Below, piece after piece: positions 11,166-15,870 of a DNA stretch of 45,972 nucleotides. A program made the translations under genes and the position numbers. Under the pieces are notes generated by a model. That model searched no databases. It saw only the letters and a program-made list of their open reading frames with translations, and had not been told where the DNA came from. Source of the stretch: Synergistaceae bacterium (GTDB taxonomy: Bacteria > Synergistota > Synergistia > Synergistales > Aminobacteriaceae); NCBI GenBank assembly GCA_031272035.1, contig JAISUO010000021.1, positions 1 to 45,972 of the forward strand. The letters are read 5' to 3'. Every line of letters starts with the position of its first letter. The first letter of the stretch is position 1.

Positions 11166-11241
11166 TCCACGATAGCTCAATCGGCAGAGCGGGTGGCTGT
11201 TAACCACTAGGTTCCAGGTTCGAGTCCTGGTCGTGGAGCCA
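11166..11241 (+). tRNA. tRNA-Asn (GTT anticodon)
   Basis: The 76-base sequence folds as a canonical cloverleaf. Acceptor arms TCCACGA (11166-11172) and TCGTGGA (11231-11237) pair perfectly. The D-arm is GCTCAATCGGCAGAGC. The anticodon stem GTGG/CCAC encloses CTGTTAA with anticodon GTT, and the T-loop is GGTTCGAGTCC. The CCA end is encoded (11239-11241). It has its own promoter and an intrinsic terminator 28 bases downstream. A truncated toxin gene on the opposite strand ends 18 bases beyond its 3' end. Confidence 0.98.
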
Positions 11242-11785: not shown

Positions 11786-13015
11786 TTACCCCGCGGAGGC
11801 CTGGGCGAAGTCGGCGATGAGGTCCTCCGTGTCCTCCAGACCGACGCTGACGCGGATCAGATCGTCGTACACTCCCGCGGCTCGCTTCTGCTCTTCCGTG
11901 GAATGAGCGTATATCGTCGATTCCGGATGAATGACCAGCGTGCGGACGTCTCCCACGTTCGTGGCGATGCGCGCGAATTTCAGGCCGTCGATCAGTTTGA
12001 ACGCCCGCTCCCTGGACCCCGCCCTCAGCGTCAGCAAAGCGCCGCCCTGCCCGTTTTTCATCTGAGCGTCGATGTTGCTTTTGTAAGGGCTGCCCTCCAG
12101 CCCCGGATAATTTACGCAGATGATATTCGGATTGTGTCTGAGGGATTCGGCCAGAACCCTCGCGTTGTGACACAGCCGCTCCATCCTCAGCCCCAGGGTT
12201 TCGAGACCCAGACAGTTGAGCCAGGCGTTTTGCGGAGACATGCAGGGCCCGAAGTTGCGCCAGATGTCCTGCCTCAGTCGGGCTGTAAGAGCCAGTTTTC
12301 CCATTTTACGGTATTTTTGAAGGACGGGAAACCTGTCGAAATCCCAGCTGAACTTCCCTCCGTCGACGATCACGCCGCCGATGGCGCTCCCGTTTCCGTT
12401 GATGTACTTGGAGGAGGAATGAACCACCACGTCCGCGCCGTGCTCCAGCGGGCGAATCAGCGCGGGGGTGGCCGTGGTGCTGTCGATGACCAGAGGAACG
12501 CCGTGACGTCCGGCGACCTCCGAGAGTTCCCGAATGTTGATCACGTTGAGCCCGGGGTTGCCGATCAGCTCCGCGAAAATGACTTTTGTGTTTTCCGTCA
12601 CCTGGGCTTCGACGGCCTCGGCGCTCATCTCTTCGACAAAACGGGCGCGGATGTCAAAATGCGCGAAATCGTCGAGAAGGTCCAGCGTTCCGCCAAAAAG
12701 GGCGCTGCCGCTGATGATTTCATCGCCGCTCCGCAAAAGGGCCAGAAGCGTCATGGAGATGGCCGCAACACCGGAAGCACAGGCCACAGCGCCCCTCCCG
12801 CCCTCAAGAAAGGCGATGCGACGCTCGAAGGCGTCCACCGTCGGGTTGCCGATCCGCGTGTAGGCAAAACCGGGAGCCCTGTTGTCAAACACCCGCTGCA
12901 GCACTTCCGCGGATTCGTGATCGAAGGCGGAGTTTTGATAAATGGGCGGAAGCGTCGCCCCTGTCCCGTCAAAGGCGTCTTTACATCCGTGCAGCAGGAG
13001 AGTGTTGAATTTCAT
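11786..13015 (-). CDS. metY: O-acetylhomoserine sulfhydrylase MetY (carrier-dependent type)
   Basis: A 409-residue fold-type I PLP enzyme of the Cys/Met metabolism family. It contains YTRIGNPTVDAFERRIAFLE, the PLP-stacking segment, and the PLP lysine in HSSSKYINGNGSAIGG. MetY replaces the acetyl group of O-acetylhomoserine with sulfur to give homocysteine. Beside the sulfur-carrier, adenylyltransferase and JAMM-protease genes, the sulfur donor is probably the carrier thiocarboxylate, as shown for MetY of Wolinella succinogenes. ATG 13015 has GAAGGAGGAAAG upstream. A Met-rich leader and terminator lie directly upstream, so expression is probably set by methionine supply. A second, distinct family member is at 39333-40541. 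Confidence 0.9.
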   Translation of the reverse strand: MKFNTLLLHGCKDAFDGTGATLPPIYQNSAFDHESAEVLQRVFDNRAPGFAYTRIGNPTVDAFERRIAFLEGGRGAVACASGVAAISMTLLALLRSGDEIISGSALFGGTLDLLDDFAHFDIRARFVEEMSAEAVEAQVTENTKVIFAELIGNPGLNVINIRELSEVAGRHGVPLVIDSTTATPALIRPLEHGADVVVHSSSKYINGNGSAIGGVIVDGGKFSWDFDRFPVLQKYRKMGKLALTARLRQDIWRNFGPCMSPQNAWLNCLGLETLGLRMERLCHNARVLAESLRHNPNIICVNYPGLEGSPYKSNIDAQMKNGQGGALLTLRAGSRERAFKLIDGLKFARIATNVGDVRTLVIHPESTIYAHSTEEQKRAAGVYDDLIRVSVGLEDTEDLIADFAQASAG

Positions 13016-13055: not shown

Positions 13056-13086
13056 AAAAAAAGGACCCCCGCGCAAACAGGGATCC
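13056..13086 (-). terminator. Attenuator terminator upstream of metY
   Basis: On the minus strand GGATCCCTG (13086-13078) pairs with CGGGGGTCC (13071-13063) over nine positions including two G-T wobbles, with a TTTGCG loop, then seven T (13062-13056). Its 5' arm can pair instead with GGGGATCTC (13144-13136) inside the leader reading frame, a mutually exclusive antiterminator. It lies 41 bases before the metY start. Confidence 0.8.
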
Positions 13087-13112
13087 CTCGCTCTCAGGCC
13101 AGACACAGCTCC

Positions 13113-13193
13113 TCAGGAGCCGGCTTCCTCAGGCGGAGATCCCCGATAGCGACGCATCATCATGTGCATAAAGGAAATAAATCTGCAGTACAT
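13113..13193 (-). CDS. Met-rich leader peptide of the metY attenuator
   Basis: A 26-codon frame starts at ATG 13193, nine bases after a strong GGGAGG site, and ends at TGA (13115-13113). The peptide begins MYCRFISF, continues MHMMMRRY and ends with SPPEEAGS. Five of 26 codons are Met, four of them within five codons (positions 9, 11, 12, 13). An antiterminator arm lies in the codons just after the Met cluster, and the terminator follows 27 bases after the stop. This is the layout of ribosome-stalling attenuation: low charged Met-tRNA would stall the ribosome, leave the antiterminator free and let metY be transcribed. Translation and stalling are inferred. The motif CCTGAGG occurs twice around its end and again, slightly changed, before the terminator. 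Confidence 0.75.
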   Translation of the reverse strand: MYCRFISFMHMMMRRYRGSPPEEAGS

Positions 13194-13210
13194 GAACCCT
13201 GTCCTCCCTT

Positions 13211-13639
13211 CTATTCTATCGTCAGTTCCTCCGGAGAGACGATTCCTTTTTCAATATGAAACGCCTTGAGCACCGGAGACTCTTCCGCCAGAGAAAGAAT
13301 GAGATAGCTGGCGGAGGGGTCGCCGGCAAGCCGGATGTCCTCCTCCGAAGGGCGGGCCGGCGATTCGGGGTGGGAGTGGAAGTTCCCCAGAGGGACAAGA
13401 CCGGCGGCGCGCATATCCTTCACGGCCCGAAGCTGCTCGCGCGGATCGATGGAGAAATGCTCGCGGCTCCCGTCGATATTGGTCATGAAATACACCTTTT
13501 CGATAATTCTGAGGTTCTCTTCGACACGTCCGGCAATGAGCCCGCAGACCTCGTTGGGCAATCCCTCCTTCGCGCGGGTCGTCAGGGCTTCGAAGTCGGA
13601 CTTTTTGATTCTCACCCCGTACGGAACCAGGGAACTCAC
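13211..13639 (-). CDS. hcyD: JAMM/Mov34 metalloprotease for the sulfur carrier (HcyD-like)
   Basis: A 142-residue MPN+/JAB1 zinc protease. The JAMM motif is complete: Glu in GLPNEVCGL, and HSHPESPARPSEED, fitting HxH-x10-D. In the Wolinella pathway HcyD first removes the residue after the carrier's Gly-Gly and later frees homocysteine from the carrier. The start is GTG 13639, overlapping the stop of the E1-like gene by four bases (GTGA), with GAGG eight bases upstream. The same frame is open far upstream through the E1-like gene, but that stretch is not homologous and only reflects base composition. The leader of metY begins 17 bases after this gene. Mec-type proteases of cysteine synthesis are close relatives; the metY linkage favours the homocysteine role. 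Confidence 0.87.
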   Translation of the reverse strand: MSSLVPYGVRIKKSDFEALTTRAKEGLPNEVCGLIAGRVEENLRIIEKVYFMTNIDGSREHFSIDPREQLRAVKDMRAAGLVPLGNFHSHPESPARPSEEDIRLAGDPSASYLILSLAEESPVLKAFHIEKGIVSPEELTIE

Positions 13640-14445
13640 AGAACAGCCTCGCAGACCGCGGGGGCGTAATCGAAGGGTTTTACAATGGAAGGATGTTCGC
13701 CGCACACGGCACAGTCGCTCTTTCTGGCGGGAAGCGCGATTTTTCGGAAATCCATCGTCAGAGCGTTGCAGGTCAGCAGCGAGCCCGTCAGCAGTTTTCC
13801 CACCCGGGCAAGATATTTTATGGCCTCCATCGCCTGCAGGCTGCCGATAATGCCTCCCATGGCGCCAACAACCCCCGCCTGCTGGCAGGTCGGAACCGCG
13901 TCGGGAGGCGGAGGGCTGTCGAAAACGCACCGGTAACAGGGCCCTTCGCCGGGAACGTACGTCATGAGCTGTCCCTGAAAACGAATGATACCGGCGTGGG
14001 AGAAGGCCTTTCCCGCAATCACGCAGGCGTCGTTGATGAGAAACTTCGCCGGAAAATTGTCGCTGCCGTCGATGATGAAATCGTAGTCCGCGATCAGATC
14101 GAGAACGTTCTCCGCAAGAGCCATCGTCCGGTAAGTATGTACTTTGACCTCCGGATTGATGGCCTCCAGACTGTCCCGTGCCGAGTCCACCTTGGGCCTG
14201 CCCACATCGGCCGTGGTGTGGAGAATCTGCCGCTGGAGGTTGGAAAGGTCCACCTCGTCCGCGTCGGCAATTCCGATGACCCCCACTCCGGCGGCGGCCA
14301 GATAAAGGGCGGCGGGCGAACCCAGCCCTCCCGCGCCGATAATGAGCACACGACCCTCCATCAGGCGTTTTTGACCCTTCACTCCAATTTCCTGAAGGAT
14401 GATGTGCCTGGAATAGCGGGTCATCTGCTCGTTTGAAAAAGCCAT
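13636..14445 (-). CDS. hcyF: E1-like sulfur-carrier adenylyltransferase (HcyF/MoeB/ThiF family)
   Basis: A 269-residue enzyme that adenylates the C-terminal glycine of a ubiquitin-like sulfur carrier with ATP. It has the nucleotide fold GAGGLGSPAALYLAAAGVGV, then ADADEVDLSNLQRQILH, the catalytic Asp region IDGSDNFPAKFLIND, and two zinc CxxC pairs (CYRC and CAVC). There is no rhodanese domain, so sulfur must arrive from outside, probably sulfide from the sulfite reductase at the head of the operon. The ATG shares its A with the carrier gene's stop (TGATG), indicating tight coupling. General family membership is certain; the assignment to homocysteine synthesis rests on the operon. Confidence 0.9.
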   Translation of the reverse strand: MAFSNEQMTRYSRHIILQEIGVKGQKRLMEGRVLIIGAGGLGSPAALYLAAAGVGVIGIADADEVDLSNLQRQILHTTADVGRPKVDSARDSLEAINPEVKVHTYRTMALAENVLDLIADYDFIIDGSDNFPAKFLINDACVIAGKAFSHAGIIRFQGQLMTYVPGEGPCYRCVFDSPPPPDAVPTCQQAGVVGAMGGIIGSLQAMEAIKYLARVGKLLTGSLLTCNALTMDFRKIALPARKSDCAVCGEHPSIVKPFDYAPAVCEAVL

Positions 14446-14651
14446 CAGAACCCTCCGCCCATAAAGTAAAGAAACTCCACGCTGTCGTTTTCCTGCAGGA
14501 GCGTCGTCTCAAAGGTTTCGCGTTTGATGAACTCGTCGTTGATGGCAACCGTGACGTACAGCGGCATTTCAACGTTCTCCGAGTCCAGCAGATTCGCCAC
14601 CGTAACGCCCGACGGATATTCTTTCTGGATTCCCGCAACAGTCAGAACCAT
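14445..14651 (-). CDS. hcyS: ThiS/MoaD-like sulfur carrier ending GGGF (HcyS-like)
   Basis: A 68-residue beta-grasp protein of ThiS/MoaD size and pattern (VTVANLL, YVTVAINDEFIKR, LLQENDSVEFLY). It ends MGGGF rather than with a free Gly-Gly. Carriers with an extra C-terminal residue need proteolytic trimming before adenylation: in Wolinella HcyS the extra residue is Ala and HcyD removes it. Here the JAMM protease gene lies two genes downstream, so removal of Phe is expected. The thiocarboxylate would then donate sulfur to O-acetylhomoserine through MetY. The gene is tightly linked to the E1-like gene (one-base overlap). The start ATG 14651 follows GGGAAGAAGAAA. Confidence 0.88.
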   Translation of the reverse strand: MVLTVAGIQKEYPSGVTVANLLDSENVEMPLYVTVAINDEFIKRETFETTLLQENDSVEFLYFMGGGF

Positions 14652-14678: not shown

Positions 14679-14918
14679 TTACGCCTTCCGCACGATCAGA
14701 CTCCAGGTCGTGTCCCCGTTGTCCAGCAGCTTCAGAATCTGATGCCCTTCGTCCTTAATGCTGCGCGGCACGTTCTGCACCGGTTCGCCGTCGTTCATTC
14801 GAATGGAAAGCACCTGTCCGGCCTCCAGCTCTTCAAGGGCCACTTTCGCTTTGACGAAGGTCACCGGACAAACCACGTCGGTGATGTCGACGGTGTCGTC
14901 TACGACGTAATCAGCCAT
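14679..14918 (-). CDS. TusA/SirA-like sulfur-transfer protein
   Basis: A 79-residue protein with the two-layer TusA fold. The sulfur-carrying cysteine is Cys17 in DVVCPVTFVKAKVALEEL. The usual CPxP motif reads CPVT, so the second proline is missing. It starts inside the end of the sulfite reductase gene (8-base overlap) and precedes the carrier gene by 27 bases. TusA proteins pass persulfide sulfur between partners. In this operon it could hold sulfide-derived or cysteine-derived sulfur for the carrier, or assist the reductase. The C-terminal half (about residues 45-79) is longer and more polar than in short TusA proteins. Confidence 0.82.
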   Translation of the reverse strand: MADYVVDDTVDITDVVCPVTFVKAKVALEELEAGQVLSIRMNDGEPVQNVPRSIKDEGHQILKLLDNGDTTWSLIVRKA

Positions 14919-15774
14919 GATACGCCTTCTCCATCGCCGCTCTGAACAGATCCCATCCGACGCGATCCACCGCCACCCGAAAACGCTCGCCGGGTTTTGC
15001 GTGTTCCGTGAAAAAGTCCAGGGCCGCGTCGGCAACGCGGAAAAGCATTTTTTTATCTTTGACAATCGGGAAAATTTCGTTGCCCTTCGTGATCAGGTTG
15101 CCGAAGGTCCCTCCGAAGGAGAGAATGTAGCCCGGCTCGCCCTTCCAGGCGTCCGTGGGGCAGGATTTGACGCATCTTCCGCAGTTGTTGCAGCGCGTTT
15201 CGTCAAGAACGACGCGGTCGTCGGAGAGGGAAAGGGCGTTTGTGCGGCAGGCCTTCACGCAGACCCCGCAGAGCGTGCAGGGCTCTTTTTCCCAGTGAAT
15301 CAGATAGCCTCCCTTGACGCCGAGGTCGTTTTCCTCCGACTTCAGGCAGTTATTCTGGCAGCCGGTCACGCCGAATTTAAATTTATGGGGCAGTTCTCTT
15401 CCGAAATACCGCTCGGATATTTCCACGGCCAGCTGGTAGGTGTCGATACATCCGCTGGGACATATCTGGCTGCCCTGACAGGCGGTTACGGTGCGGACCC
15501 GCGGGCCGCAGACTCCCGTGGAGACTCCCCCCTCCAGCAGCTCCGACCGGACGGCTTCGATGTCTCCCAGTTTCATGAAGGGGATCTCGACCCCCTGACG
15601 CGAAGTCAGATGCACGTGTCCGTCGCCGTATTTTTTCGACACGCCGGCAATCGTCACAAGCTGCTCCGCGGTCAGGTTCCCCCCGATCACCTTAAGCCGC
15701 AGAGAAAAATTGTCCTTTTGCCTCTGGCGCATGAAGCCGCCGTTTTTCAGCGCCTTGTAGTCCACCCCTGCCAT
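14911..15774 (-). CDS. Siroheme/4Fe-4S sulfite reductase with ferredoxin domain
   Basis: A 287-residue single-chain reductase of the sulfite/nitrite reductase superfamily. It has an N-terminal ferredoxin-like half (VHLTSRQGVEIPFMK) and the siroheme-4Fe4S ligand set CQGSQIC with CQNNC (C-x5-C and C-x3-C). An inserted pair of 4Fe-4S ferredoxin motifs follows (CTLCGVCVKAC and CNNCGRCVKSC). It should reduce sulfite to sulfide using electrons from its own clusters. It is the first gene of the minus-strand operon and would provide sulfide for carrier thiocarboxylation. ATG 15774, with AAAGGGG ten bases upstream, is preferred over an ATG at 15825, which has only a weak site. It resembles AsrC and short Dsr-like reductases; an assimilatory role is inferred from context. 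Confidence 0.85.
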   Translation of the reverse strand: MAGVDYKALKNGGFMRQRQKDNFSLRLKVIGGNLTAEQLVTIAGVSKKYGDGHVHLTSRQGVEIPFMKLGDIEAVRSELLEGGVSTGVCGPRVRTVTACQGSQICPSGCIDTYQLAVEISERYFGRELPHKFKFGVTGCQNNCLKSEENDLGVKGGYLIHWEKEPCTLCGVCVKACRTNALSLSDDRVVLDETRCNNCGRCVKSCPTDAWKGEPGYILSFGGTFGNLITKGNEIFPIVKDKKMLFRVADAALDFFTEHAKPGERFRVAVDRVGWDLFRAAMEKAYHG

Positions 15775-15870
15775 ATGAAATTTTCCCCTTTCGGCCCGCT
15801 GGAGCTTCCTGCCCGAACAGCTCATACAAAAACGGAAGCTTCATCTTCACCGTTCAACAGCTTTTTTATA

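Follow-up and report, generated by a model that had tools for sequence, protein, structure and literature searches.

The window, i.e., the whole stretch of DNA analysed here, is 45,972 nucleotides long and carries on its minus strand a sulfur-assimilation operon including metY. The operon starts with a gene for a nitrite/sulfite reductase-like protein with ferredoxin domains (14911..15825; Pfam PF01077 and PF03460), followed by a TusA-family gene (conserved core 14679..14945, within an open frame reaching 15065; PF01206, E 5.7e-18), a ThiS-like, HcyS-like sulfur carrier (14445..14651, read from the sequence, with the family assigned by analogy with the Wolinella Hcy system), a ThiF/MoeB-type, HcyF-like adenylyltransferase or E1 (13636..14445; PF00899, E 1.6e-82), and a JAMM/JAB-domain, HcyD-like protease gene (13211..13669, with an approximate 5' end; assigned by sequence reading, homology and neighbourhood). 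A short leader ORF comes next, directly downstream of the JAMM gene, and then metY itself (11786..13015, ATG at 13015), which encodes a Cys/Met metabolism PLP enzyme of the O-acetylhomoserine sulfhydrylase family (PF01053, E 3.5e-108; TIGR01326, E 1.8e-124, yet under that model's cut-off). Beyond the 3' end of metY there is a tRNA gene on the plus strand (11166-11238; Rfam RF00005). The gene layout of the Wolinella-type Hcy system, that is, MetY beside a C-terminally extended ThiS-like carrier, a ThiF-type E1 and a JAMM protease, is thus present, and we take this operon to represent the thiocarboxylate (Hcy) route to homocysteine, as in the Wolinella system; the chemistry is inferred. The ThiS-like carrier ends with GGGF before its stop codon, and would need C-terminal trimming, which is consistent with the neighbouring JAMM protease, though this is also an inference.

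A ribosome-mediated attenuator is expected to have a short ORF with a ribosome-binding site upstream of the gene under control, more control codons for the pathway amino acid than chance would give, an intrinsic terminator before the structural gene, an antiterminator and a terminator that exclude each other, and a geometry in which a stalled ribosome frees the antiterminator while a ribosome at the stop codon does not. The first of these features is present at the metY leader. Its Shine-Dalgarno sequence AGGGAGG (13203..13209, minus strand) begins one base past the stop of the JAMM gene, whose end is at 13211, and the leader ORF (13113..13193, minus strand) reads from an ATG at 13193 to a TGA at 13115-13113, with 26 codons before the stop. 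The encoded peptide is MYCRFISFMHMMMRRYRGSPPEEAGS, and its architecture is common to 102 related leaders. Methionine occupies codons 1, 9 and 11-13, and the single cysteine is Cys3. The sensing codons Met9-His-Met11-Met12-Met13 lie at 13155..13169 (minus strand). Given the Met codon frequency of 2.6% nearby, at least four Met within five consecutive codons would arise by chance with P < 5e-5; actually, only one of the 37 ATG ORFs of 15-40 codons preceded by a Shine-Dalgarno sequence in the window meets this rule, and it is the metY leader. The second feature is therefore also present, from this window probability and from the codon-gene match in 86 leaders described below. Just ahead of the leader, nothing resembling a promoter was seen, so that the attenuator must act inside the operon.

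The leader RNA can form two competing structures. The antiterminator 5' arm, GGGGATCTCCGCC (13132..13144, minus strand), codes for part of R-G-S-P-P and is conserved across the family, while the 3' arm, GCGAGGGATCCC (13080..13091, minus strand), overlaps the terminator 5' stem. The pairing of GGGGATCTC (13144-13136) with GGGATCCCT (13087-13079) is possible, and the full helix is longer, joining GGGGATCTCCGC (13144-13133) and GCGAGGGATCCC (13091-13080) with a duplex energy of -24.0 kcal/mol. Between the two arms, a P2 hairpin, GCTCC-TGA-GGAGC (13108..13120, minus strand), places the stop codon in its loop, as seen in the window fold and supported by the arm-swap test below. The intrinsic terminator, GGATCCCTG-TTTGCG-CGGGGGTCC followed by seven T (13056..13086, minus strand), was identified by sequence reading and a terminator search and is likewise supported by the arm-swap test; its 5' stem (-16.6 kcal/mol) is contained in the GCGAGGGATCCC arm. 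Thus the window locus has an intrinsic terminator before the structural gene, and the antiterminator and the terminator are mutually exclusive.

We have further folded the window leader under constraint, with a ribosome footprint placed on each codon, and computed the terminator probability at each position. Without a ribosome, the antiterminator reaches 0.998 and the terminator 0.003. With the A site at codons 2-11 the terminator probability is at most 0.08 (0.002-0.08 at codons 9-11), codons 12 and 13 bring it to 0.43 and 0.83, respectively, and from codon 14 onward, up to the stop, it stays at ~1.0. That is, the predicted switch-over between the two structures falls at A-site codons 11-14, and the Met codons sit on it. 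When the terminator 3' arm is treated as not yet transcribed, the antiterminator arm is paired with a probability of 0.999 under a stalled ribosome versus 0.20 under a ribosome at the stop codon. In the folds of the window leader, a stalled ribosome therefore frees the antiterminator and a ribosome at the stop does not. Nevertheless, the ribosome at the stop covers the arm only partly, so that termination in the fed state relies on the melting of P2 and on timing. For the relatives, this last feature is only partly met in equilibrium folds: most of them keep the terminator despite the stalled ribosome (mean 0.82 stalled vs 0.93 at the stop). Since the terminator is favoured there in all equilibrium states, the switch in these relatives must be kinetic. 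The antiterminator fold of the untranslated window RNA matters because methionine starvation also limits initiation with fMet; according to the model, failed fMet initiation would not trigger termination in the window copy.

An earlier note, made from sequence alone, had proposed this leader with its Shine-Dalgarno sequence, Met codons, terminator and alternative helix, and sequence reading and folding have confirmed each of them at the positions it gave. Its logic, by which stalling favours the antiterminator and a completed peptide favours the terminator, is supported by the constrained folding and by more than 80 related leaders. It had also suggested that three CCTGAGG-like motifs around the end of the leader add a further RNA signal. 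This suggestion is rejected, as the motifs are the nested arms of the antiterminator stem (the P1 extension and P2).

The element is not confined to this locus. With 501 bases as the query, a DNA search located a second copy within this genome, and others came from reading metY-like and other loci; in total, this genome holds two further copies, before a second metY-like gene and before an SsuA-like gene. We have built a covariance model (R1) with the antiterminator. R1 has matches in 51 of 83 genomes of the family at E <= 0.1, and in 93 of 188 Synergistota genomes at E <= 1e-3; against the family model, the window copy scores 73.3 bits (E = 2.5e-24), being itself one of the six seeds. A degenerate DNA pattern searched over 84,980 species returned 13 stretches, every one titled as a Synergistaceae or Synergistales MAG. 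About 120 matches were retrieved, and leader frames were picked by Shine-Dalgarno strength, not by codon content, which yielded 102 leaders, 86 of them non-redundant. Several covariance-model matches were dropped by eye as false (L112, L114, L116, L118, L120, L121, L124, L127-L130, L159 and L178), while L126, set aside at first, is probably real, with a Met/Cys leader before a sulfate transporter. The constant scaffold consists of an antiterminator arm coding roughly for GS(P/S)PG and then a hairpin around the stop codon. In the R1/R2 definition of the family, these are a GGATCYYCGCC arm, P2 around the stop, and a GGCGRGGATCC terminator stem, with the pathway codons just before the arm, and the window copy meets this definition. 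In 54 of the 86 leaders the stop codon lies 27 nt past the first G of the arm, within the P2 region. An Rfam scan of the window gave no gathering-level match except the tRNA and nothing meaningful at E <= 1, so that the metY leader has no covariance-model match to a SAM riboswitch of any class or to a T-box; across the window and ~51 related loci, no known leader, T-box or riboswitch overlaps the element. As a side observation, in almost all leaders of the family the conserved arm codes for Pro-Pro or Ser-Pro close to the end of the peptide, at its C-terminus (13142-13129 in the window), and an EF-P-dependent slowing just before the leader stop is a possibility.

The conservation of the structures was assessed by swapping arms between leaders (86 of them for P2). 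Native terminators have a mean energy of -18.3 kcal/mol versus -10.1 kcal/mol when swapped, native antiterminators -19.7 versus -15.2 kcal/mol, and native P2 hairpins -10.1 versus -8.3 kcal/mol, with none of 5000 permutations reaching the native value in any of the three. Because R1 was built with the antiterminator, the antiterminator swap was repeated on the 29 leaders also matched by a sequence-only model, seeds excluded, and the difference persisted (-18.7 vs -16.5, 0/10000). In P1, double-sided changes number 29 against 10.2 in shuffled data (0/1000), and the third arm pair changes from A-U to G-C or C-G across gene classes. Inside the close sulfur subset almost no P1 covariation is found, because the core is nearly invariant there; the signal appears only across gene classes. 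For the terminator, the register varies between copies and a column-wise covariation count is uninformative, hence it was judged by the energy swap instead.

Downstream genes were clustered and then named with NCBIfam and Pfam, and the sensing codons match them throughout the family. Met/Cys codons occur at metY, metX, metQ and cysE, Cys at ssuA, Ile at porC, Leu/Val/Ile at ilvC, and Thr at hom (homoserine dehydrogenase). Met/Cys leaders, e.g., MFKHMTSVEARFAMSMMMCMDCGSSPGAIGV, precede O-acetylhomoserine sulfhydrylases, MetX, MetQ and CysE, and also a cystine-type binding protein, SsuA/SsuC-like proteins and JAMM genes; SsuA genes are preceded by Cys leaders (SSCCCRCSRSSPSDTGG), and poly-Ile leaders (NIIIIIINAAPPRRIGV) with the same scaffold lie before gamma subunits of 2-oxoacid:ferredoxin oxidoreductase. 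Among the 50 non-redundant sulfur-gene leaders, the 14 codons before the arm are 30% Met at MetY and MetQ and 43% Met at MetX; Cys makes up 26% of them at SsuA and 10-18% at metY, metQ and metX. In the 42 nt before the arm of these 50 leaders, ATG triplets are distributed over the three frames as 177 : 2 : 3, i.e., 177 of 182 are in the leader frame. The Met+Cys content differs between sulfur-gene and other leaders with a Mann-Whitney p = 2.8e-13, which should be taken as a guide only, as the sequences are not fully independent. In the porC leaders the arm is 2 nt shorter and is read in another frame, and still the frame is open to the same stop. This is a strong argument for a translated ORF in which codon identity is the sensor, though translation is inferred from sequence and there are no expression data.

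Poly-Ile leaders were seen at L151, L165, L167, L169, L174, L177, L182, L184, L185, L188, L192, L193, L195, L198-L200, L203 and L204, and why isoleucine should control 2-oxoacid:ferredoxin oxidoreductase remains unexplained. The Thr-rich type is represented by L123 (homoserine dehydrogenase) and the Leu/Val/Ile-rich type by L166, L186 and L191 (ilvC region), all with the same scaffold; leaders before a membrane protein without a family match (L108, L119 and L122) are also among the Thr-rich and Leu/Val/Ile-rich ones with this scaffold.

Seven Met leaders (L101, L103, L109, L111, L149, L194 and L201) lie directly behind a SAM-I riboswitch, before metQ, metX or metY. At the six loci measured the spacing is 77-115 nt, and a clear riboswitch terminator stands in between at five of them, the one in L101 being weak. 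Since the SAM-I riboswitch is itself an element of the methionine regulon, this arrangement is independent evidence tying the Met leaders to methionine control. It also raises the possibility of a two-input gate in series, inferred from the arrangement only.

On the other hand, the close metY orthologs in G003 (76%), G020 (74%) and G014 (54%) have no such leader immediately upstream. The gap between the JAMM gene and metY is only 47 nt in G003 and absent in G014, and in G002 the orthologous position is not visible as the contig ends. G020 has a CysN-MetY fusion as the last gene of a sulfate-assimilation operon, and the start of that operon bears a Met/Cys leader, MFVMMWRCAGSPLEEPSHERCIS. At L218:7229-9844, CysN (sulfate adenylyltransferase large subunit) and MetY are joined in a single frame; this fusion closes an operon for a sulfate ABC transporter, AprAB and CysD, which begins with a Met/Cys leader. 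As close metY orthologs lack the leader, the window copy is a lineage-specific placement of a family module inside the operon. The conservation in relatives that the earlier note had named as its check is thus found for the family and not at the orthologous metY position. The element is not peculiar to metY or to thiocarboxylate chemistry: it is a single copy from a family that spans the phylum and senses several different amino acids.

Overall, the analysis shows how the element is built, that its two helices exclude each other, that the Met codons fall at the computed switch-over, and that codons and gene functions match across the family; leader translation, termination itself and methionine supply as the signal are inferred without wet-lab data. 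Taken together, in the absence of expression data, we consider it very likely that the element attenuates transcription through the translating ribosome, with charged Met-tRNA as the sensed signal and read-through into metY as the controlled step, and that it belongs to a Synergistota family of interchangeable attenuators with a common RNA scaffold and differing sensing codons. With ample methionine, the ribosome would pass Met9-Met13 and reach the stop codon, where it would cover or melt the antiterminator arm together with P2; the terminator at 13086-13056 would then form, and RNA polymerase would halt before metY. When Met-tRNA is short, the ribosome would stall on the Met codons and leave 13144-13132 free to pair with 13091-13080; this pairing would block the terminator, and metY would be transcribed.

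It could be argued that the same attenuator responds in effect to cysteine, or to any sulfur amino acid, rather than to methionine. The leader does contain Cys3, many relatives mix Met and Cys codons, and stalling at codon 3 in the window leader would retain the antiterminator as well. However, the window leader has one Cys against four internal Met, the Met codons are those at the switch-over, Met dominates before metX, metY and metQ, and SAM riboswitches stand in tandem with Met leaders, which makes a cysteine signal very unlikely. We also give little credence to a ligand-binding riboswitch, responding to, e.g., SAM, homocysteine or sulfide, with an aptamer that contains the ORF by accident. 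The scaffold sequence is strongly conserved (GGATCYYCGCCYGGAGCGAYCGGCGTNTAG) and could resemble an aptamer, but genes for methionine, cysteine, isoleucine, branched-chain amino acids and threonine use one scaffold in which only the codons differ. Moreover, the Shine-Dalgarno sequence, the frame and the stop position are conserved, the shifted frame of porC stays open to the same stop, and no Rfam riboswitch matches in the window.

Nascent-chain arrest by the conserved C-terminus, GS(P/S)PG..GV before the stop, perhaps through Pro-Pro and responsive to a metabolite, is similarly improbable. The peptide C-terminus is indeed conserved, with PP or SP. Nevertheless, the conserved residues are exactly those coded by the antiterminator arm and P2, and they vary along with it (APPRRIGV, GPPSGGFGA, RSSPSDTGG); residues specific to each class are found further upstream, and a ribosome arrested close to the stop would sit over the arm and thereby promote termination. 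Finally, an ordinary terminator of the JAMM gene with a chance ORF and a chance helix has in its favour that the element directly follows an operon gene. This explanation can practically be ruled out by the family score of 73 bits, the two paralogs in the same genome and the codon specificity in 86 non-redundant leaders.

Leader-peptide attenuation is textbook knowledge, and methionine genes are usually described under SAM riboswitches, T-boxes or repressors. The window element resembles the classical attenuators of Proteobacteria (trp, his, thr, ilv, leu and phe) in its Shine-Dalgarno-led short ORF with control codons for the pathway product, and in the mutually exclusive antiterminator and intrinsic terminator with an arm freed by a stalled ribosome. 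It differs from them in that the control codons are Met, the antiterminator arm lies within the coding region, the stop codon is in the P2 loop, the untranslated RNA folds as the antiterminator, and the scaffold is common to leaders for several amino acids. In Streptomyces lividans, a Met/Cys-codon leader, metL (MSTTSDRTPATEATTTPGARCMCRRMCAF), has been proposed before metNIQ; it is leaderless, and its authors find no typical Rho-independent terminator (PMC8079986). It is alike in placing Met/Cys codons before a methionine import operon, but it belongs to a different phylum and no sequence relation was seen. Cys-codon attenuators include uORFC-8-2 before cysS in Rhodobacterales (PMC8632094) and the Cys leaders without terminators of actinobacterial cys operons (PMC1262725); they share a short upstream ORF with sulfur amino-acid codons as the sensor, and differ in sensing Cys only and in belonging to other phyla. 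The ilvB-II uORF of Corynebacterium likewise has pathway codons and a P1 antiterminator opposed to a terminator (PMC11109978, PMC10272879), but it serves branched-chain amino acids only and its sequence is unrelated. The SAM-I riboswitch (S-box, RF00162) also controls metX, metY and metQ through a terminator, and is in tandem with the Met leader at the seven loci above; it senses SAM directly through its aptamer, whereas no S-box match is found for the element in the window. A published RNA survey of a single Synergistetes genome, that of Thermovirga lienii, presents a different motif in its main text (PMC6429828). In the open-access literature searched, with subscription papers and supplements outside the scope, we came across neither a terminator/antiterminator switch of the Met type nor this phylum-wide scaffold. 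As far as this search shows, no ribosome attenuator that combines Met codons with a clear terminator/antiterminator pair has been reported. The novelty claimed by the earlier note is thus only partly upheld, given the proposal for S. lividans.

A bolder reading is that Synergistota control their methionine, cysteine, isoleucine, branched-chain and threonine genes through one interchangeable scaffold, exchanging nothing but the sensing codons. In this reading, the Met version would work despite the fMet limitation because some copies at least, the window one among them, are read through by default when left untranslated, and the several genomes that stack a copy behind a SAM riboswitch would gate expression on low SAM together with low Met-tRNA. 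We consider this joint claim more likely than not. The family amounts to a natural experiment, in which the same RNA carries differing sensing codons before genes for differing amino acids. It makes directly testable the codon-to-pathway logic, the stop-codon-in-loop geometry, and the sensing of methionine when initiation itself needs methionine. In addition, it supplies a map of the sulfur and amino-acid regulon for a phylum with few genetic tools, and an RNA family unmatched by Rfam 15.

Some leaders on this scaffold precede genes of other kinds. At L154, L163 and L171, a Phe-rich leader (SLFFFSFSQ) lies before a family 3 solute-binding protein, and a Phe/Tyr-type leader before a phenylacetate-CoA ligase-like gene. 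At L098, L100, L147 and L090, Cys/Met leaders with the same scaffold precede a gene for a radical SAM protein whose role is unknown and a CoA ligase-like gene; both are candidate additions to the sulfur regulon.
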